In this document: positions 830 through 49,640 of the stretch, one piece after another
Position numbering within the stretch: the stretch's first letter is position 1
How the letters are laid out: the number at the start of each line of letters is the position of its first letter
Source: Bacteroidetes bacterium OLB12
Lineage (GTDB): Bacteria > Bacteroidota > Bacteroidia > Cytophagales > Cyclobacteriaceae
Length of the DNA: 64,000 nt
Direction of reading: 5' to 3'
NCBI GenBank assembly: GCA_001567185.1
Contig: LNFR01000110.1
Coordinates: 62,001 to 126,000 of the forward strand
The notes under the pieces: generated by a model
What the model was told of the DNA's origin: nothing
What the model saw: the letters and a program-made list of their open reading frames with translations, nothing else
Database searches by the model: none
Made by a program: the position numbers and the translations under genes

Positions 830-2643
830 ATGAAAATCTGTTGGCCCGTTCTGTTTATTCTCCTCAACCTTTCAGCTACTGCCCGCCAATTTGATGCAGC
901 CGGAAGCGAGGCCCAAATGCAAGGCCTTACCGACCGGCAGAAGGTTCTGTTTATTAATCAAAATTTTTACGCACTATACAGTGCCGATTTTAATAACGCC
1001 AAAACCCTGGCCGAGTGGGCTGCCGCAAATGCAGCGGCCAACGGGTGGAAACAGGAAGAAGCCTATGCACAAATGAACTGGGGTATTGTAACCTACCTTT
1101 CGGGAGACTATGAGCATGTGCAGGAAAAATATTTTCGGGCACTTGCAGTATTCGAAGCGTTGAAGGACAAAGCGGGTATTGCTGCTGTAAATAATGAAAT
1201 GGCGGTTTTTTACCATAAGCAAAATGAGTTGGATAAAGCACTGGCCTGTTTAGCGGTTGCCGAAGAAAATGCCCGTGAGGTAAATGATCTTACGCGGCTT
1301 GGTACCGCGCTGGCACATCGCGGATCGTTTCTTTCCAGGCGCGGAAAAATTGAAGAAGCAAAACCCTACTATCTCGAAGTTTATGAAATCCGCAAAAAGA
1401 CAGCCGATAGTGTAGGATTGGGATATGTTCTGCTCGACCTGTCTGAAGTAGCGCTTCATGAGGGGAACTTAACCCAGGCGCTTAATTACATAAGCGAATC
1501 GAGCCGCATTCGCCAAAAGCTTGGCGATAAACAAGGTGTGGCCGTAAACCTGGTAACAAATGGAGAAGTGTTGCTTCAGGCAAAAAAATAAAAGAAGCGA
1601 TTACATCGCTTGAAGCCGGATTAAAACAGGGCGAAGCCATTGGTTATACCGATTTGGTGAAGTTTACGTTGGGTGCGTTGGCCGATGCACATTTGCAATT
1701 AAACGACTACAAAACGGCCTATACGTATCGCGAGCGGCAACATATCTTAAACGATAGTTTGTTTAACCTGGACAAAGCCAAAGTAATTCACGAAATGCAG
1801 ACCAAGTATGAAACCGTAAAAAAGGAAAATGAAATTCTGTTGCTCCGGCAGGAGAACCAGGTTAAAGATACAAGGCTTACTCAAAGCATGCAGGCCATTG
1901 TGGCCCTGTTGGGTGTACTGGCATTAATTCTGGCATTGGGATACCTGTGGAAAAACCGATTGCAATTAAAACAGCAAGCCGAATTGCAGTCAACGCGTGC
2001 CACTTTGCGCGAAGCACAATTGAAGGCGGTAATTGCATCGCAGGAAGAAGAACGAAAACGATTTGCTGCCGATTTGCATGATGGTTTCGGGCAAATGATT
2101 TCTGCCTTGCGGCTAACCCTATCGAAAGAAAAAATTGAAAAGCCTACGGTTGAACATGCACTGGGTGTGTTAAATGATATGAATACCGAAATCCGGAACA
2201 TCGCCTTTAACCTAATGCCCCAGGTGTTGATGAAGAACGGATTAAGTGAGGCAGTAAAAGAATTTGCAGCCCGCATTACCCGGGCCGGGGCAGTTTCAGT
2301 AACCGTACAAACTTTTGATCTGGATGAAGCCATGCCAGATGATTTGCGCATTGCCCTGTATCGTATTTGCCAGGAGTGGGTGAACAACATATTAAAATAT
2401 GGAAAGGCAAGCCAGATTGTCATTCAGTTGGTACAACACCCGCAAGAACTTGTGCTTACCATAGAAGATGATGGCAATGGCTTTGATTTAAGTTTGCTTA
2501 CCGAAGGCACCGGCAATGGCTGGAAAAATATTAATTCGCGCCTGCACATGATTAAAGGAAGCATTGAAATTGACACCACTCCCGGCCGAAGGGGAACAAC
2601 CCTGGTAGCCACAGTGCCCCTGGCGATTGCGCAAGCCGCCTGA
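830..2643 (+). CDS. TPR-containing sensor histidine kinase (HisKA_3/NarX type), frameshifted
   Basis: The repaired product is about 604 residues: signal peptide, TPR-like helical repeats over roughly residues 40-320, one membrane segment (VALLGVLALILALGYLW), then a HisKA_3 dimerisation domain with the phosphoacceptor in AADLHDGFGQM and an HATPase domain with NNILKYG and EDDGNGFD. This architecture is common in Bacteroidota kinases that signal through NarL/LuxR-type regulators. The likely partner is the regulator at 3335, which shares the promoter pattern. The frame breaks in the A7 run at 1582-1588: adding one A reads QAKKIKEAITSLEAG and joins both halves. A sequencing deletion is more likely than a true pseudogene. 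The signal sensed cannot be inferred. Confidence 0.88.
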
Positions 2644-2719
2644 CTCCGTGCTACCACGTATGTTTGAATACCTCTCTTGTGGTATTTAATACAGAGGTAA
2701 ACGCAGGTATTTTGCCTGT

Positions 2720-3268
2720 ATGAAAGTTTCAACCGAATACACGTTTAAAAACAGTGCGCATGAAAAGCCCTGCACGGTATCTCTAACTGATTATAACCTT
2801 ATTGTGCAAATGGATGGCAGTGCGCGTGCGGTTCCTTATGCGATGATTACCGCTATACGTTTATGCAGATCGCGAAATCGGTTTAAAGTTATTGTACAAC
2901 CGGATGGCCAACCGGCCATTGCAATCAGCAATCAGTATTATTTGTCGGGTTGCGAATGTGAAGATCGGTCGCGACAATATGCAACGTTTGTGCGTATTCT
3001 GCACTTTCACCTGAAATCAAAAAGCGCCACCACTTATATGTGTGGAAAACATTTGCACCGGTTGATAGGCTGGGCTTGCGGGTTGGTGGTACTTTCTTTT
3101 ATAGCGGCTTTTGTGCTGGAGTATTATAATCTCAATCCTTTCAGTACATGGGGGGTAGCTTTACTTTTTTCGGCTTTTTCCTTGCTGATACTGGTTGCAT
3201 TAAACTGGGGCCGAATGCCCAACATCTATAACCCCGATCAGATCCCATTTCAGTTTTTGCCTCAATAG
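2720..3268 (+). CDS. Two-TM membrane protein of unknown function
   Basis: 182 residues, not recognised as a named family. Residues 1-95 look like a soluble beta-rich domain and contain the short motif SGCECEDRSRQY; the overall pattern resembles PH-like membrane proteins, but only weakly. Two hydrophobic helices follow (about 113-132 and 142-160), then a short tail with NIYNPDQIPFQFLP. It lies between a histidine kinase and its probable response regulator, both in the same direction, so a link to that signalling pair is possible. The regulator has its own promoter, so cotranscription is uncertain. Confidence 0.7.
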   Translation: MKVSTEYTFKNSAHEKPCTVSLTDYNLIVQMDGSARAVPYAMITAIRLCRSRNRFKVIVQPDGQPAIAISNQYYLSGCECEDRSRQYATFVRILHFHLKSKSATTYMCGKHLHRLIGWACGLVVLSFIAAFVLEYYNLNPFSTWGVALLFSAFSLLILVALNWGRMPNIYNPDQIPFQFLPQ

Positions 3269-3281
3269 CATTGCTTGAAAC

Positions 3282-3312
3282 TTGTGTAGGATTTAATGAG
3301 CGTTTACCTTTA
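3282..3312 (+). promoter_or_regulatory. Bacteroidota-type promoter for the NarL-family regulator
   Basis: TTG at 3282-3284, a 20-base spacer, then TACCTTTA at 3305-3312; start codon at 3335. Spacing and final base match the promoter in front of the TPR kinase at 830. Confidence 0.5.
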
Positions 3313-3334
3313 AGGCGCACAGTTTTTTCTTTAA

Positions 3335-3971
3335 ATGAACACGGGCAGTCCTATTAAACTTATGTTGGTTGATGATCATCGCATTGTGCTGGATGGTTTA
3401 AAATCCATGTTCGACCAGGATAATAACTTTCAGATTGTCGCTACTGCAGGAAGCGCTGAGGAAGCGATGAGTTTATTACAGACCAAGCACCCTGATGTTT
3501 TACTTACCGATTATCGCCTTCCCGATGCCAGTGGCCTGGATTTATGTGTGTGGATAAAAGATAAACTACCCGCTACTAAAAGAGTAATTCTGAGTATGTA
3601 CGATGAGGTTGCCCTGGTGCGGCTGATTTTAAAGGAAGGTGTGGATGGTTACATTATGAAAAGTGTGCAGCAACTTGAATTAAAAAAATGCGCTCCACCA
3701 AATTATTCGGGGCATGCCGTACGTAAGCCCTGAAATAACACGCATGTTGTTAACCGATATAGGAAAGCAACCCGAAGAATTGCTTACAGCGCGTGAGCGG
3801 GAAGTATTAAACCTGATCGCCAAAGAATATTCCAACAAACAAATTGCCGACAAACTGTTTATTAGTGAGCGTACCGTGGAGACGCATCGTAAAAATATTT
3901 TCAGAAAAACGAATACTTCTACCCTGGTTGGCTTAATCAAATACGCATTCGCAAATAACTTAATACAATAA
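3335..3971 (+). CDS. NarL/FixJ-type response regulator, frameshifted
   Basis: The repaired product is about 211 residues. The receiver domain has acidic residues D13/D14, phosphoacceptor D59 in LLTDYRLPD, and the conserved lysine in GYIMKS. A LuxR-type helix-turn-helix follows (LTAREREVLNLIAKEYSNKQ, then ISERTVETHRKNIF). It is expected to be phosphorylated by the TPR kinase upstream and to bind DNA as a dimer. The frame is broken at the A7 run 3682-3688; with six A the text reads ELKNALHQIIRGMPYVSPEIT, the normal linker. A one-base sequencing insertion is the simplest explanation. Confidence 0.9.
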
Positions 3972-3973
3972 GC

Positions 3974-4629
3974 TTACGATCGGAGAACCATCGCAAGACT
4001 TTCCAACTCAAGGTGTGTAAAATCCGGTATAACCAGGTCGCAATGTTTTAACTCTGCCGGGGTGTGGGTGGTTGTTACACCTACTACGCGGGCCCCGGCC
4101 CGTTGGGCAGCTTCTATCCCCGAAAGGGAATCTTCAAACACAATAGTTTGAGCTGGTGCCAGGCTAATGCCTGGGCTGTTTTCAGATAAATTTCCGGGTT
4201 GGGTTTACCGTGCGCAACATGCGATTGATCCAGAATTACCGGAAAATAATTGCGCAAGCCGGTATTGTTCAAAACAAAATCCACATTGCTGCGCGGGGCC
4301 GAAGTACCGATGGCACAAGGAATTTTTTGATTGGATAATTTTTCTAAAAATAATTCCAGCCCGGCAACGGGAGCAATCGCGTCTTTATAAATAGCCCGAA
4401 ACATTGCTTCTTTTTCTTCGCCTAACTCGAGCAATCTCTCTTTGGAAAGTTTACCAAATAGGTTGGTGATCCACTCGTTATTGGTGCGACCATAAATACG
4501 CTTAATCAATTCTTCATCTGAAAAATGATATCCATATTTTTCACAGAATTGTTTTAACGAAATTTTATGGTAGGGATTGGTGTCCACAATCACCCCGTCC
4601 ATATCAAACACTACTCCAAATAAATTCAT
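3974..4629 (-). CDS. HAD-superfamily hydrolase, beta-phosphoglucomutase-like, frameshifted
   Basis: The repaired product is about 218 residues beginning MNLFGVVFDMDGVIVDT. The DxDGVxxDT motif (D9, D11) supplies the aspartyl nucleophile and acid/base; GTSAPRS is motif II, and GKPNPEIYL with FEDSLSGIEAA after repair are motifs III and IV. The cap size fits subfamily I sugar-phosphate phosphatases or mutases; the substrate is not predictable. A missing base near 4164-4167 breaks the frame (LGLAPAQTIVFEDS is restored by adding one). The start was chosen because the preceding gene on this strand stops ten bases upstream; an earlier in-frame ATG lies within that gene. Confidence 0.88.
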
Positions 4630-4639
4630 GAAATCAAAC

Positions 4640-6817
4640 TCAATGTATAACAACAAAACGCCTGCCGGTGGTTTTACCCTGGTAAGAAAACCGGGCAATA
4701 TAAATACCGGGCAGCAATCCGGAAACCTGAATGGGGTATTCCTGGTTGGCCGGAATGAAATAACTATTGGAAATCCGTTGGCCCATCAGGTTGTAGAATT
4801 GAACCAGCATGTTACGATCTGTTTTTATGTTGAAAGTTTCATTCGCATGAATTGGGTTTGGAAAAATTTCAATCAAGGGTTCATCCGGAAGGGTAGCCCC
4901 ATCTTCATTCTTCAGCACTACCAGGCCTCCGGTAGTCGTTCCGCATACAATGGCCGGCTTGTTGCTGTTAAACAGGTTAACAGTGGTTGGCCAGATGCGG
5001 CCCCCCAGGTTTCTCGATTCATGCGTTTCAGTAATCGGATTGAAGATGATTTCGGAAACACCCTGAATGTTTGTGTTCTGCGCCCGAAAATCTCCAAACA
5101 AGGTTAATTCCCCGCGTTGATTTCCCATTACCAGGTCTGCGCGCCCATCGCCATCCAGATCGGCCGCAGCTAATGCGGGATTTTGCCTGGCAGTACTGGA
5201 TGTTAACCCAAGAAAACTCTCATTTTTCAGGGTGTAAACAGGTTGAGTACCGCCTGTGTTTTGCCAATATTGAACGGCACCGGTAGCTTTTCCAATCAGG
5301 ATATCGGTTTTGCCATCCAGGTTTACATCTATCAGTAAAATGTTTTCCTGCTGTCCAAAAGAAAAATTCACTACCTGAAATGTTTGCCCGCTTATATCAA
5401 GCCGGCTGGTAGATTGATTTGGTATAAAGTATAAACTGGTAATACCTGTTTGAAAATTAGTGGCGGTAAAAACAAAATCCAGTGTGGCATCGGCATTCAT
5501 GTCGGCAAACTGAATCTTTACATTAAACAAAGGCGAGGTTGAAAAACTGGCAAAGTCTTCATTCACGAGTTTGAAATTGGCCTCGGTAGCTGAGCCGGTG
5601 TTTTCATAAACCCGAACTGTGCTGGCAAAGCCCGGCCCGGCAAAATTGCTGATGAACATATCCTGATCGCCATCGCCATCGGCATCCATAAATGCGGGAA
5701 CCGCGTAATCTCCCACATCAATCATTTCATCTTGTAAGAAATTGTTTTGTTGAAACACAAACTGGGGTAGTTGTTCGGTGCCTGTGTTTTTATAATACCA
5801 AAGCGACTGGCTGAAGTTGATGGAGTTAGTAAAAGTTCTTGCATATACATTGGGCGATGCAAGGAGGTCGCGCTTGCCATCCATGTCCACATCTTCATGG
5901 TAGGCAGCCGGAAAAAGCATGAAGTTGATGGGGTTAGCAGCAGGAAATAAGGTAGCGCTGTTCATGTTTGCGGTTTCAGAAGTACCCTTGTTTTCGAGAA
6001 ACGAAAGTTCGGTACATGCTTCTTCACTAAAGAACAAATCGCGGTCACCATCTCCATCGGTGTCGATGGTTAACATTGCTTTTCCACCGGCATGTTCAGT
6101 CCGGCCGTTTGGTATAGAATTGCAGGGAGCACCGCCAAAGGCAAAAAAGTTACAGTCGCACTCTTCCAGGTTGCCAAACGTTTGTGTTACCCGCTCCAGT
6201 TGTAACGAATCGCACGTGCCGGTGCGTTCCATACTCAGATTCTTATGGTATTCAATGGTGCCAATACCTACAAAGCGAACGTTTAAAATATCCAGGTCGC
6301 CATCGCCATCAATATCGTCAATTACAGGGATGTCCGAAGCATTGAGTTGCAGGTTTACATTCGATGTAAAACCTTTGGTTAAGATGGGGAAGCCGGGATT
6401 GTAGGCGCGCCACGATAAAGTTTGTTGCGGTTGCGTGGTATTGATGAAGGCAATCATGCCAAACGGATCGCTGGTGAACAAATCTTTTTTACCATCGCAA
6501 TTCAAATCGCGCAGCAAAAGCCATTGTGTTACTTCGGAAGGAAACAGCGATTCATATTCCGGAGCGTATTGGTAGCGGCTACCGGTATTCACGTAGGTGA
6601 AGATTTTATTGGCGGTGCGATCAAAAACAACCAAATCGTCTTTGGTGTCGCCATTTATATCCAGGGTGTTGATTTGCGCAGCGTTAAGACCACCGGCCCA
6701 GGGCATGGAAAGTATGTGAGAGGTCTCTACGGGTATGCTTTGATCGATCGTATAGGTAAACTGACCGAAAGCACTAAACGTTAAAGTAAGAAAGCACACA
6801 AGCCAGCCGGTCTTCAT
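4640..6817 (-). CDS. Secreted FG-GAP/VCBS-repeat protein with T9SS C-terminal sorting domain
   Basis: About 725 residues from MKTGWLVCFLTLTFSAFGQ, a clear signal peptide; a longer in-frame start would bury it. The body holds about nine calcium-binding-like repeats of the DxDGDxxxD kind (for example DIDGDGDLDIL, DTDGDGDRDLF, DLDGDGRADLV), which form an FG-GAP/VCBS beta-propeller. The last 80 residues (from about EIFPNPIHANETF to GRRFVVIH) are a type A T9SS sorting domain, so the protein should be exported through the Por system to the surface or medium. Function is probably adhesion or binding. A HAD hydrolase gene follows ten bases downstream. Confidence 0.9.
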   Translation of the reverse strand: MKTGWLVCFLTLTFSAFGQFTYTIDQSIPVETSHILSMPWAGGLNAAQINTLDINGDTKDDLVVFDRTANKIFTYVNTGSRYQYAPEYESLFPSEVTQWLLLRDLNCDGKKDLFTSDPFGMIAFINTTQPQQTLSWRAYNPGFPILTKGFTSNVNLQLNASDIPVIDDIDGDGDLDILNVRFVGIGTIEYHKNLSMERTGTCDSLQLERVTQTFGNLEECDCNFFAFGGAPCNSIPNGRTEHAGGKAMLTIDTDGDGDRDLFFSEEACTELSFLENKGTSETANMNSATLFPAANPINFMLFPAAYHEDVDMDGKRDLLASPNVYARTFTNSINFSQSLWYYKNTGTEQLPQFVFQQNNFLQDEMIDVGDYAVPAFMDADGDGDQDMFISNFAGPGFASTVRVYENTGSATEANFKLVNEDFASFSTSPLFNVKIQFADMNADATLDFVFTATNFQTGITSLYFIPNQSTSRLDISGQTFQVVNFSFGQQENILLIDVNLDGKTDILIGKATGAVQYWQNTGGTQPVYTLKNESFLGLTSSTARQNPALAAADLDGDGRADLVMGNQRGELTLFGDFRAQNTNIQGVSEIIFNPITETHESRNLGGRIWPTTVNLFNSNKPAIVCGTTTGGLVVLKNEDGATLPDEPLIEIFPNPIHANETFNIKTDRNMLVQFYNLMGQRISNSYFIPANQEYPIQVSGLLPGIYIARFSYQGKTTGRRFVVIH

Positions 6818-46831: not shown

Positions 46832-47562
46832 TTACACCTGCGCACCGTTTTTCTCATTCCAATAATAACTGTCAGGATAGGCGCGCTGGCCAAAAATGGC
46901 CGTACCAACCCGCACCATGGTTGAACCTTCGGCAATAGCCGTTTCAAGGTCACCGCTCATACCCATAGATAATTCATGAACAGGAATATCTTTTTGCAGC
47001 AGTTGGTCTTGTATGTGTTTTAGCAACCGAAAGCATTTACGTACTTGCTCAGGTTCTGCAGAGAAAAGCCCAATGGTCATGAGCCCCTTTATATTAAGCC
47101 GGTCGAGCGGTTTTACTTGTAACGCAAAGGCTATTGCTGCTTCCGGAGAGATACCAAATTTACTTGCCTCGTATGATGTGTTTACTTGTAAAAAGACATC
47201 CATGGTTTTGCGCTCAAACTCTAAGCGCTTTTGTAATTTTTCTGCCAATTCAATTCGGTCAAGCGATTGAATACAATCGGCATACCTGATTACTTCCTTA
47301 ATTTTGTTGGTTTGTAAATGCCCGATGAAGTGTGCTTGATGCGGAATGGTTTTGAGAAAATCAGCCTTTTCAACAAGCTCCTGCACTTTGTTTTCACCAA
47401 TCAAGGTTTCGCCCGCTTCAAAGGCTATCTTAATGTTTTCTGCTGAAACGGTTTTAGTGGCCAGCAGGAGTTTTACTTCATTTGCATTTCGCCCCGAATC
47501 TGCGGCAGCCTTTTTTAATTCTTGTTTTTAATTTGCGCTATATGCCCGGTAATTGAACTCAT
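46832..47562 (-). CDS. YggS family PLP homeostasis protein, frameshifted
   Basis: The repaired product is about 243 residues starting MSSITGHIAQIKNK. It has the PLP lysine region LLLATKTVSAENI, GENKVQELVEKADFL, HFIGHLQTNKIK and MGMSGDLETAIAEGSTMVRVG, all typical of PLPBP/YggS. These proteins bind PLP without known catalysis and maintain B6 and amino-acid balance. A missing base at 47522-47523 breaks the frame; restored text is NKELKKAAADSGRN. The start overlaps the marR stop by four bases (ATGA), so it is the last gene of the DUF2024-marR-yggS operon. Confidence 0.9.
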
Positions 47563-48164
47563 GCCTGTAATTCATGGTCAGGGCAATCCACTCGCAATTC
47601 ATGGGCGGCCAGCCGGCTTTTCAAAAGGTTGCAGTAATGAACGCCCTTGTCAACCTGGTAGTTTGAACAGGTAAAACACATGCGTTGAATGGTAATGATG
47701 CCGGATTTATTCAGATCATGAATCAATCGTAGTAACCCGTTAAGCATGATGGTTTTCTGTTCGGTGGTTAGTTTTTCAAGCGGCTGCTCAATGGACGAGG
47801 CAAAAAGCGAAGTTTTTTTTGCAATGGCTTTTCCGGCCGAAGTCAACGCAAGCGAATAACTTCTTGTATCCGCGGGGTCTGTTTCTTTTGTAATTAAATC
47901 TTTGGATAGTAAGACCCTTACGCTGTCGCTGATGGTGGCTTTTGTCATGTTGAATTCATCAGCCAAATATCCAACCTTACATTTTTCTGAAGTGTGGAAG
48001 TAGATGAAGATCAATACCTGAATTTGAATTGGGCTAAGCGAATATTCTTTACTTTCATTCCAAAGCAATACCCGAAAGGCTTCCGAAACACGTTCCAAAG
48101 CCACCACAATCCGACTCTCCACCTTCTGGTTTTGTTCGGTTAAATTAAAGGAAGACGGTTTCAT
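47559..48164 (-). CDS. MarR-family regulator with Cys-rich C-terminal extension
   Basis: 201 residues. Residues about 30-150 are a MarR winged helix: KVGYLADEFNMTKATISDSV is the recognition region and DPADTRSYSLALTSAG is the wing. The extension beyond 160 holds CFTC (C163, C166), HYC (C178) and DCPDH (C194), a four-cysteine arrangement that could bind zinc or an iron-sulfur cluster or sense oxidants. The gene begins one base after DUF2024 and overlaps yggS by four bases. Dyads with core TAGGA-N-TCCTA lie upstream of its own operon and two neighbours, so it is the likely repressor. That assignment is inference. Confidence 0.9.
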   Translation of the reverse strand: MKPSSFNLTEQNQKVESRIVVALERVSEAFRVLLWNESKEYSLSPIQIQVLIFIYFHTSEKCKVGYLADEFNMTKATISDSVRVLLSKDLITKETDPADTRSYSLALTSAGKAIAKKTSLFASSIEQPLEKLTTEQKTIMLNGLLRLIHDLNKSGIITIQRMCFTCSNYQVDKGVHYCNLLKSRLAAHELRVDCPDHELQA

Positions 48165-48428
48165 TTAATTGCAATTTTCCATTTCAAAAATGAAATAACC
48201 ATTTTGCTTAATTTGAGCTTCCCAGTGTGGCTTAATAGTTTCAATGTGGCAAAAGCTGCATTCCCTGGCTGTCAGGTTTTGTCCTTCCTGGCCTTTGCTT
48301 TTCAAATACGCTTTTCCGTAGCCGTAAATTACGGTTGCGTCCTCTACCTCTTCGGGGGCTATAATGTCGAAATGCATGGTGCTGCCATCCTTTTTAGTTA
48401 CGTATGTATCCCAAACAGCTACTTTCAT
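48165..48428 (-). CDS. DUF2024 family protein
   Basis: 87 residues starting MKVAVWDTYVTKKDGSTMHF, with ECSFCHIE and a terminal MENCN. This is the DUF2024 family, small and of unknown function. The CxxCH could coordinate a metal or form a disulfide; haem attachment is unlikely because there is no signal peptide. First gene of the operon with marR and yggS; its promoter at 48490-48520 overlaps an operator-like dyad. Confidence 0.92.
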   Translation of the reverse strand: MKVAVWDTYVTKKDGSTMHFDIIAPEEVEDATVIYGYGKAYLKSKGQEGQNLTARECSFCHIETIKPHWEAQIKQNGYFIFEMENCN

Positions 48429-48482: not shown

Positions 48483-48519
48483 TGCCCTGTAAAGATAGGA
48501 TTCCTAACTTTACAGGGCA
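48483..48519. repeat. 12-base inverted repeat enclosing an operator-like dyad
   Basis: TGCCCTGTAAAG at 48483-48494 and CTTTACAGGGCA at 48508-48519 are perfect complements. The 13-base loop contains the TAGGA-T-TCCTA dyad. No clear T tract follows on either strand, so it is not a simple terminator, although it lies between two genes of the same direction. Confidence 0.7.
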
Positions 48520-48520
48520 A
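48490..48520 (-). promoter_or_regulatory. Promoter of DUF2024-marR-yggS with overlapping MarR-type operator
   Basis: On the reverse strand: TTG at 48520-48518, exactly 20 bases, TATCTTTA at 48497-48490. The dyad TAGGA-A-TCCTA (48496-48506) occupies the spacer and the first bases of the -7 element. A bound dimer would block RNA polymerase. The first gene starts 62 bases downstream. Confidence 0.65.
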
Positions 48521-48526
48521 ATAAAA

Positions 48527-49264
48527 TTACTTAACACGGTAGGGCAGCGATAAATTGCCACTGGCAACGGAATACACCTTGTAAACACCCAGCATGGGTT
48601 TGTTTCCGCCACCATGTCCACCGTCATCGCCTGTGCTTACTTGCATGTATGCAGTAACTCCATCGTAAGCAAAATCAGTTTTGTTGTTTATCCGATAATC
48701 GGGAACAACAACACGTATTGTATTGGCAATTGTGATAACCTGATAGCCCGGTGAATCCATGAACATAGGCATACCCGGAGCAGTTTTTGGAAGAACAACA
48801 CTTTTGTCATCGGCCTTAAATTCTTTTACAGATAATCCTCCCTCTACGCGTTTGTCTTCTGTTAGAATAACCCAGTGAGGATGCCAAACAATTCCATCGT
48901 TATCAAATTTTCCATCGCTGTTTTCGTCCCATAGCGGGCTATCGTCAAAATCGGGGTGCGAAGTCAGCGCCAGGGCAACTATACCTTGTGTGTTGCTAAA
49001 GCCAACGTCTGTTGGGGTTAGCGATGTTGGAAATACATAGCCCAAAACAGGAGCTCCATTAAGCTGCCCTGCAGGTTTAGGTGTTGTTTTACCTGCTGTT
49101 CCTTTAACTGTAATTTCCCAAATGGTGGCACCAATTTCTGCAGCATGGGTTACGCTTACTTTTTTAATTTGAAAATCGTCATTGTTATAGTTGCCACATT
49201 TTTCGCAGGCAAAAACCTGAAGCGAAAGCATAACAAAACTCAAAGAGAATAATAGCTTTTTCAT
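48527..49264 (-). CDS. Exported protein of unknown function with N-terminal CxxC
   Basis: 245 residues with signal peptide MKKLLFSLSFVMLSLQVFA; the mature protein would begin CEKCGNYN. VFAC could also be read as an imperfect lipobox. The body is beta-rich and acidic, with DENSDGKFDNDGIVWHPHWV (a calcium-loop-like acidic stretch plus WHPHW) and STGDDGGHGGGNK near the end. I do not recognise the family. It lies between the DUF2024 operon and the CPVC gene, in the same direction, with an operator-like dyad 45 bases upstream of its start. Confidence 0.8.
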   Translation of the reverse strand: MKKLLFSLSFVMLSLQVFACEKCGNYNNDDFQIKKVSVTHAAEIGATIWEITVKGTAGKTTPKPAGQLNGAPVLGYVFPTSLTPTDVGFSNTQGIVALALTSHPDFDDSPLWDENSDGKFDNDGIVWHPHWVILTEDKRVEGGLSVKEFKADDKSVVLPKTAPGMPMFMDSPGYQVITIANTIRVVVPDYRINNKTDFAYDGVTAYMQVSTGDDGGHGGGNKPMLGVYKVYSVASGNLSLPYRVK

Positions 49265-49308
49265 GTTTTAAGAATTTAAGGATGGGATAATGAATTTTCC
49301 TAAATTGG

Positions 49309-49319
49309 TAGGAATCCTA
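49309..49319. promoter_or_regulatory. Operator-like dyad upstream of the exported CxxC protein
   Basis: TAGGA-A-TCCTA, identical in its 11-base core to the site at 49620-49630. No good -7 element is evident on the reverse strand (AATTTA follows), so promoter placement is unclear here. Confidence 0.55.
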
Positions 49320-49337
49320 ACTTTTAGGGTTAAATTT

Positions 49338-49570
49338 TTAACCTTTTACATCAGCCAAGGATGCTCCAAAATTGATGTGAAGCACATGGCCGTTTGGAGT
49401 AAGCAATGCCGGAACAGATTTTACCCCGGCCTTTTCTGCTTCTGCTATCCGGCTGCGATCATTGCCAATGTGAACGATCTCTACATGAGCAGCTCCGATA
49501 AGATTTACGATGTCGTGCTCTGCACTGATGCATACAGGCAACCTGCGTGATAGAAAATTGATTTTGTCAT
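49338..49570 (-). CDS. Thioredoxin-fold small protein with CPVC motif, frameshifted
   Basis: The repaired product is 77 residues: MTKSIFYHAGCPVCISAEHD, then VEIVHIGNDRSRIAEAEKAG and the cis-proline region VKSVPALLTPNG. This is a glutaredoxin/thioredoxin-like fold with active-site CPVC. It is cytoplasmic. A base is missing at GG 49537-49538; without it the CPVC is lost and a stop follows soon after. A promoter with an embedded dyad lies upstream at 49610-49640. It probably reduces a thiol partner, perhaps linked to the cysteine-rich regulator nearby (inference). Confidence 0.85.
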
Positions 49571-49609
49571 TTTTTTGAAGATTTAAGTGAGTAAATATTA
49601 ATATGGATG

Positions 49610-49640
49610 CAAATATAGTTAGGAATCCTAACTAAACCAA
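49610..49640 (-). promoter_or_regulatory. Promoter of the CPVC gene with a perfect 19-base dyad in its spacer
   Basis: On the reverse strand: TTG at 49640-49638, 20 bases, TATATTTG at 49617-49610. The palindrome TAGTTAGGA-A-TCCTAACTA (49616-49634) fills the spacer. This is the best copy of the three dyads and sits 46 bases upstream of the start codon. The arrangement fits repression by steric occlusion. Confidence 0.7.

Follow-up and report, generated by a model that had tools for sequence, protein, structure and literature searches.

A palindromic dyad accompanies a four-cysteine MarR-family regulator and its changing gene neighbours in Bacteroidota

What do three copies of a short dyad do around the gene of a MarR-family protein in Bacteroidetes bacterium OLB12? 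The window analysed here is a stretch of 64,000 nucleotides (contig LNFR01000110.1, positions 62,001 to 126,000), and a sequence-only reading of it had proposed that the dyads define a local regulon in which the MarR protein would also control its own gene. The features of the locus are collected in Table 1.

The 11-base core TAGGANTCCTA is present in three exact copies (48496-48506, 49309-49319 and 49620-49630), at the positions given in that reading and nowhere else in a pattern scan of the whole window, and each copy lies upstream of a reverse-strand gene, also as described. Dinucleotide shuffles of the window contain a mean of 0.02 cores per window, and three were reached in none of 100. 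Throughout the organism's own genome (3,596,296 bases in 118 contigs, 92% complete) TAGGANTCCTA is found only at these three sites, and a reversed control pattern once. The 13-base form TTAGGANTCCTAA, allowing at most one mismatch, occurs at five places in this genome, three of which are the window sites; the remaining two lie within a reading frame (contig C20) and upstream of a long frame with no -7 box after the match (C36). A search of the same genome for a wider regulon gave no convincing additional site, the best promoter-type match elsewhere (C55) being located within a reading frame. The perfect 19-base palindrome reported at 49616-49634 is indeed there, and widening it to 21 bases introduces one mismatched pair. 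It is positioned between a -33 element (TTG, 49638-49640) and a -7 box (TATATTTG, 49610-49617). The exact 20-base spacers from TTG to TAnnTTT were correctly assigned at 49620 (49638-49640 to 49617) and at 48496 (48518-48520 to 48497), and this promoter consensus we take to be of the Bacteroidota type. Operator 3 is embedded in a 35-base inverted repeat, a feature absent from the sequence-only reading.

Table 1. Features of the MarR locus in window coordinates; the operators are predicted.
Feature	Position	Strand	Remarks
Operator 1	49616..49634	-	perfect 19-base dyad, class A; ahead of the trx gene
Operator 2	49308..49320	-	ahead of the exported-protein gene
Operator 3	48495..48507	-	class B; overlaps -7 box TATCTTT (48491-48497); TTG at 48518-48520; spacer 20
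35-base inverted repeat around operator 3	48484..48518	-	11-base perfect arms; predicted RNA hairpin; stem covaries in relatives
Small thioredoxin-like gene (trx)	49338..49570	-	frame interrupted here, intact in relatives
Exported 245-aa protein (here ExpC)	48527..49264	-	signal peptide judged by eye
DUF2024 protein	48165..48428	-	CxxCH motif; PF09630, E 3e-35
MarR-family regulator, 201 aa (marR)	47559..48164	-	C-terminal extension with C163, C166, C178, C194
yggS, PLP-binding protein	46832..47562	-	TIGR00044, E 5e-48 for the open part

The dyad was followed into relatives at several distances. In a family set of 98 genomes, marR orthologs were delimited at E values of at most 1.4e-41, the next best match being 3e-8; 16 genomes carry 17 such genes, and the ortholog is missing from one of two sampled genomes of the same genus. 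Every one of the 17 genes has a site in its island if two mismatches are allowed, and 16 still do if only one is. A scan of a species-genome collection returned at least 508 relatives at E 1e-3, the best 80 of which constitute the named set. These best 80 come mainly from Bacteroidota (Cyclobacteriaceae, Flavobacteriaceae, Saprospiraceae, Chitinophagaceae and others); a small number carry the label Acidobacteria, Pyrinomonadaceae, Ignavibacteria or Balneolaceae. In this named set, the region within 2.5 kb upstream of marR (193.5 kb in all) contains 125 sites with at most one mismatch, versus 3 in the other 703.9 kb, and exact sites number 32 near marR versus none elsewhere. When the 80 named loci were pooled with 14 family loci, three duplicates being dropped, 84 of the 94 loci showed an upstream site with at most one mismatch and 8 more a site with two; at the two loci with none (L120 and L123) the contig ends only 190 and 290 bases upstream of marR. 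No site within two mismatches was detected beside non-orthologous MarR genes (14 loci, 43.2 kb). The scan of relatives that the sequence-only reading had called for found sites that follow the orthologous marR and its targets and are missing at these 14 loci of other MarR genes. Near-exact sites are not equally dense at unrelated genes, yet 8 family genomes among the 82 that lack a marR ortholog contain one or two copies of the exact 13-mer TTAGGANTCCTAA; in the family genomes as a whole its exact copies occupy 18 places, 8 of them adjoining marR. Of the 65 family genomes that contain the exact 13-base dyad or its reversed control, 54 have fewer copies of the dyad than of the control, as if it were avoided elsewhere. 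The spread of marR across the phylum is patchy, since only 28 of 395 genomes in a phylum sample have the gene at E 1e-25. Twelve of the 29 matches in that sample, mostly weaker or more distant, were analysed as further loci. A site is found at 9 of them when two mismatches are allowed and at 6 when only one is; L213, L218 and L219 have none within two mismatches. Two genomes carry two marR copies with different neighbours (G046, on two contigs; G376, at L219 and L220).

The presumed targets travel with the regulator. Of the 98 family genomes, 12 contain trx, and every one of these belongs to the 16 that carry marR (Fisher 2.2e-12); DUF2024 is present in 10, namely 9 of the 16 with marR versus 1 of the 82 without (Fisher 6.8e-8). 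In one genome (G090), trx and the exported-protein gene are located on a different contig from marR and are accompanied by three sites with one mismatch each; no other finding speaks as strongly for a site that marks targets in trans as well as the locus itself. Together with the orthologous marR loci and their targets, this contig supports the proposed local regulon with MarR autoregulation. The dyads are very likely operators bound by the neighbouring MarR protein, which likely represses its own gene as well; judged by comparative genomics, the regulon is real and much wider than was supposed from the window.

The gene designated trx is thioredoxin-like by its CxxC motif and by Pfam matches below cut-off. 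Its product has 77 residues in relatives, and CxxC is present in all 69 Trx reading frames at the best 80 of at least 508 marR loci. The description of this gene as a CPVC thioredoxin fits the intact copies in relatives, but the window frame is interrupted near the CPVC codons. An assembly fault is the likely cause, given that intact copies are common and that a 96%-identical relative (L066, CP058703) has an unresolved N at the same spot of trx. The frame of yggS, whose ATG (47560-47562) overlaps the marR stop codon, is broken close to its start in the window, and the interruptions of both genes are probably assembly faults. In 24 of the named loci (best 80 of at least 508) marR has a yggS-like gene nearby; such a gene is missing from the marR islands of relatives in the family set. 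CxxCH is retained in all 44 DUF2024 copies of relatives. The CxxC ascribed to the exported protein is present in the window copy and in 22 of 23 named-set copies, but among nine family-set copies only the window's own has it. ExpC has no relative in Pfam or NCBIfam and no PDB sequence relative up to E 1; its AlphaFold model is poor (pLDDT 58), with a best Foldseek E value of 1.0. A link to phage defence was considered and rejected: the MarR protein has weak PADLOC matches, the best at E 8.6e-7, which are read as winged-helix regions in other proteins, and PADLOC gave none for DUF2024 or ExpC.

The regulator contains a MarR winged-helix domain, as it matches PF12802 (E 1e-10, 42.1 bits vs a cut-off of 27) and PF01047 (27.7 vs 24.6 bits); the Rrf2 domain PF02082 is not among its 9 Pfam hits (E up to 1). 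The domain is followed by a short tail in which C163, C166, C178 and C194, in the pattern CxxC-x(10-13)-C-x(about 15)-C, are invariant in all 17 family copies. The motif is likewise present at all 80 named loci (best 80 of at least 508), three of which are shared with the 17-copy set, and this is not forced by the retrieval because the scan patterns lie in the DNA-binding part. Of the 12 further copies, tails were inspected in 11 (all but L211); 10 show the motif, and L220 shows it in part. AlphaFold models the MarR body mostly with confidence and the tail poorly (pLDDT 35-67). The PDB MarR relatives listed align only up to about residue 155, and the four-cysteine (C4) tail has no relative among solved structures (best E 0.96). 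We propose that this extension is the sensor or its metal site, holding either [4Fe-4S] or zinc.

The sites are arranged in two fixed ways relative to the promoter. Among 152 near-exact sites, a TAnnTTTG box is found at an offset of +14 from the site start in 63 and of +10 in 28, and elsewhere only twice. With TAnnTTT taken as the -7 box, the operator fills the spacer in class A, where TTG precedes the -7 box by 19-20 bases in 27 of 66, and overlaps the -7 box in class B, where TTG lies exactly 20 bases before it in 37 of 49. Another 37 near-exact sites belong to neither class, having no -7 box at either offset; operator 2, the middle site of the window, is of this kind. Operators of both classes would block RNA polymerase, and repression with autoregulation is the best model because many operators overlap core promoters of the Bacteroidota type. 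At the best 80 of at least 508 loci, class A heads the island, with trx as the next gene in 54 of 58 cases and protoglobin in 3, and no recognised gene just before it in 57; class B sits between genes, a recognised gene coming just before it in 45 of 45.

A longer inverted repeat surrounds the class B sites, which form its tip. Across 42 distinct sequences, the stem pairs in 88.6% of cells versus 80.2% in shuffles; changes on both sides affect 72 cells versus 24.1 (sd 7.2), and the covariation score is 0.337 versus 0.181, neither value being reached in 500 shuffles. Slid versions of the stem pair at 33-55%. The number of pairs changed on both sides (7 vs 5.9 in shuffles; 156/500) and that of further pair types (20 vs 18.3; 92/500) do not stand out. 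Covariation is found in the outer stem, at pairs that lie 11-15 and 17 bases away from the centre, and class A arms cease matching at about 11 bases. In 40 of 45 class B cases the left base of the hairpin follows the preceding gene at a distance of 9-14 nt from its last matched codon, and T makes up 59% of the 10 bases after the stem. The window repeat has a predicted folding energy of -24.5 kcal/mol (z -7.1) and no T run behind it. On the simplest reading of these alignments, the class B hairpin would be the terminator of the preceding gene, nested with the operator and promoter of the next.

In some relatives, though not in the window, the operator precedes genes for proteins that bind or detoxify nitric oxide. 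A protoglobin gene lies behind the operator in 2 of 17 family loci and, by similarity, in the operon at 5 of the named loci (best 80 of at least 508); the four such genes tested match PF11563 with E about 1e-27 to 1e-29. A truncated-globin-like gene directly precedes marR at 5 named loci (best 80 of at least 508); the operonic globin-like gene tested (L130) scores 17.4 bits, below the Pfam cut-off of 21. A cytochrome P460 gene (PF16694, E at most 9e-31) separates marR from the operator at 5 of the 12 further loci, one of which (L216) has an operator with two mismatches. Protoglobin genes are present at 3 more of the 12, once on the opposite strand. RIC/ScdA is encoded within 6 kb at 6 named loci (best 80 of at least 508), one of these genes having been tested by Pfam. 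A second Trx-like protein, with CPGC, is encoded in 4 of 17 family loci; two that were tested give weak Pfam matches below cut-off. DUF2024 genes without marR (the second copy in G046 and the only one in G032) are clustered with truncated-globin and hemerythrin-like genes, a clue that DUF2024 may belong to nitrogen-oxide or low-oxygen responses. The neighbours of these two genes also include RIC in G046 (L191, about 4004-6039) and FixO in G032 (L192, about 1866-6678). Binding of nitrogen oxides by the heme proteins of the cargo is established knowledge, and the sequence data suggest nitric oxide or hydroxylamine chemistry as the common thread of this exchangeable cargo. The window's own cluster encodes no heme protein. 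Genome-wide presence of RIC does not discriminate in the family set (12 of 16 genomes with marR vs 45 of 82 without, p 0.17), and the co-occurrence of protoglobin is not significant there (2 of 16 vs 1 of 82, p 0.07).

Some further neighbours were recorded. On contig C116 of the organism's own genome (L195, 1858-6780), an Rrf2 regulator, RIC/ScdA, a COX1-family oxidase subunit (by Pfam) and a hemerythrin-like gene (by resemblance) lie together. An AAA ATPase gene, one copy of which was tested by Pfam, is found near marR, mostly just behind it, at 11 of the best 80 of at least 508 loci: L110-L112, L114, L116, L125-L127, L131 and L138 (Tenacibaculum) and L113. A gamma-glutamyl-cyclotransferase-like gene (PF06094 in the one tested) precedes marR at 9 of the same best 80 (L067, L074, L078, L080, L083-L085, L106 and L107).

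Other accounts of the dyads were weighed against this reading. Chance recurrence can be dismissed almost with certainty: we found no point in its favour, and it is contradicted by the window shuffles, the uniqueness of the core in the genome, the density on the marR side, the sites at 92 of 94 loci and their absence at non-orthologous MarR genes. Binding by another, unlinked transcription factor, marR being merely one of its targets, would account for the exact 13-mers in marR-less family genomes; we regard it as improbable, because trx is found in none of the 82 family genomes without marR and the operator tracks marR into other classes and phyla amid quite different cargo. The repeats might instead act mainly as RNA terminator hairpins and not as protein-binding sites, and the covarying stem placed so regularly behind the preceding gene speaks for this. 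Class A sites, however, share the core with arms that stop about 11 bases out and mostly without a recognised gene before them, and the class B tip is nearly fixed while the stem varies, as expected of a protein site inside a hairpin. This explanation is therefore very improbable, more so than an unlinked factor.

The same operator-repressor system could respond to something other than nitric oxide (oxidants, reactive chlorine, electrophiles or metals), the C4 tail then being a structural zinc site or a thiol switch. Four cysteines suit zinc equally, the window lacks a heme protein, and the cargo is rich in thiols, with the motifs of the Trx-like and DUF2024 proteins kept throughout (69/69 and 44/44) and the CPGC protein at 4 of 17 loci. 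Against this stand the recruitment of three families of nitrogen-oxide-binding heme proteins to the operon in different lineages and the RIC or hemerythrin genes near some loci. We consider such a different signal unlikely, though a serious contender. That nitric oxide or a related species is the signal, with a metal in the C4 tail, is what we infer, at chances about even to somewhat better.

The model that we favour combines these elements and is, as a whole, reasonably probable. A MarR dimer would bind TTAGGA-N-TCCTAA over the core promoter, either in the spacer that separates the -33 and -7 elements or on the -7 box itself, and thereby shut off trx, DUF2024-marR-yggS (its own gene included) and probably the exported-protein gene. 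The four invariant cysteines of the C-terminal extension would serve as the sensor or as its site for a metal, be it [4Fe-4S] or zinc, and the signal would be nitric oxide or a related nitrogen species. Once released by this inducer, the repressor would let a small set of stress genes be expressed, for thiol proteins and, in relatives, for heme proteins as well. Immediately behind the preceding gene, operator 3 also forms the tip of a hairpin, and this hairpin would probably end that gene's transcript.

Several described regulators resemble the window protein in part. MepR and OhrR are autoregulated MarR repressors that use a short palindromic operator in a local unit; the MarR domain is common to them and the window protein, and MepR is among its best solved-structure relatives, but the solved MarR relatives listed have no counterpart of the C4 extension. 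SufR consists of a winged helix followed by a C-terminal cysteine region that binds [4Fe-4S], and it controls the suf genes of Fe-S assembly, none of which was recognised among the gene families here. ArnR of Corynebacterium is a dimeric repressor whose [4Fe-4S] form binds DNA, nitric oxide abolishing the binding, and it controls hmp, which encodes a nitric oxide-detoxifying globin; as described in the source, it has three conserved cysteines (179, 193 and 223) in a C-terminal domain and is almost confined to Actinobacteria (PMC12343034). ArnR and the window protein both join a MarR/ArsR-like winged helix to C-terminal cysteines, a likeness of plan and not of homology, and the window type is set apart from the published description by its short four-cysteine tail, other cargo and other phyla. 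ArnR is the nearest described analogue found, by plan, and by function too if the nitric oxide reading holds. The NCBIfam model named ArnR, an activator, matches the window protein weakly (E 0.016, 14.6 bits vs a cut-off of 400); membership in ArnR or SufR is not claimed, and the protein is assigned to MarR by its domain. SufR is listed in the same source as a related [4Fe-4S] regulator, and NsrR, of the Rrf2 family, is given there as an Fe-S repressor that responds to nitric oxide (PMC12343034). This last role is the one proposed for the window MarR, and an Rrf2 gene occurs with RIC elsewhere in the same genome, but the window protein matches MarR models and not Rrf2. HcpR of Bacteroides, predicted by comparative genomics to regulate the response to nitrogen oxides, with regulons of only hcp genes in most Bacteroides species, is likewise a predicted nitrogen-oxide regulator of this phylum, but belongs to the CRP/FNR and not the MarR family; the main text of that paper does not contain the word MarR (PMC1274295). 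In the text available of a review on P460 (PMC11928373), 'MarR' appears only as an author's name. No description of this MarR-operator system was found in the literature, as judged mostly from titles and the beginnings of abstracts.

New here, by comparison of sequences, are the invariant four-cysteine extension of a MarR protein, a cargo that swaps protoglobin, truncated-globin-like protein or cytochrome P460, and an operator at the tip of a covarying hairpin. That they amount to a widespread, undescribed class of MarR proteins in Bacteroidota and some other phyla, sensing nitric oxide or hydroxylamine through a C4 Fe-S module and governing exchangeable heme and thiol cargo from a terminator-operator-promoter element of about 35-40 bases, we suggest tentatively, giving it slightly less than an even chance. 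If true, Bacteroidota and some other phyla would have a sensor of nitrogen oxides that belongs to neither the CRP/FNR nor the Rrf2 family, and one stress would connect three uncharacterised families: DUF2024, the exported protein and the 77-aa Trx-like protein. The locus would also offer a compact regulatory element, a hairpin that has the repressor site at its tip and would probably terminate the upstream transcript.
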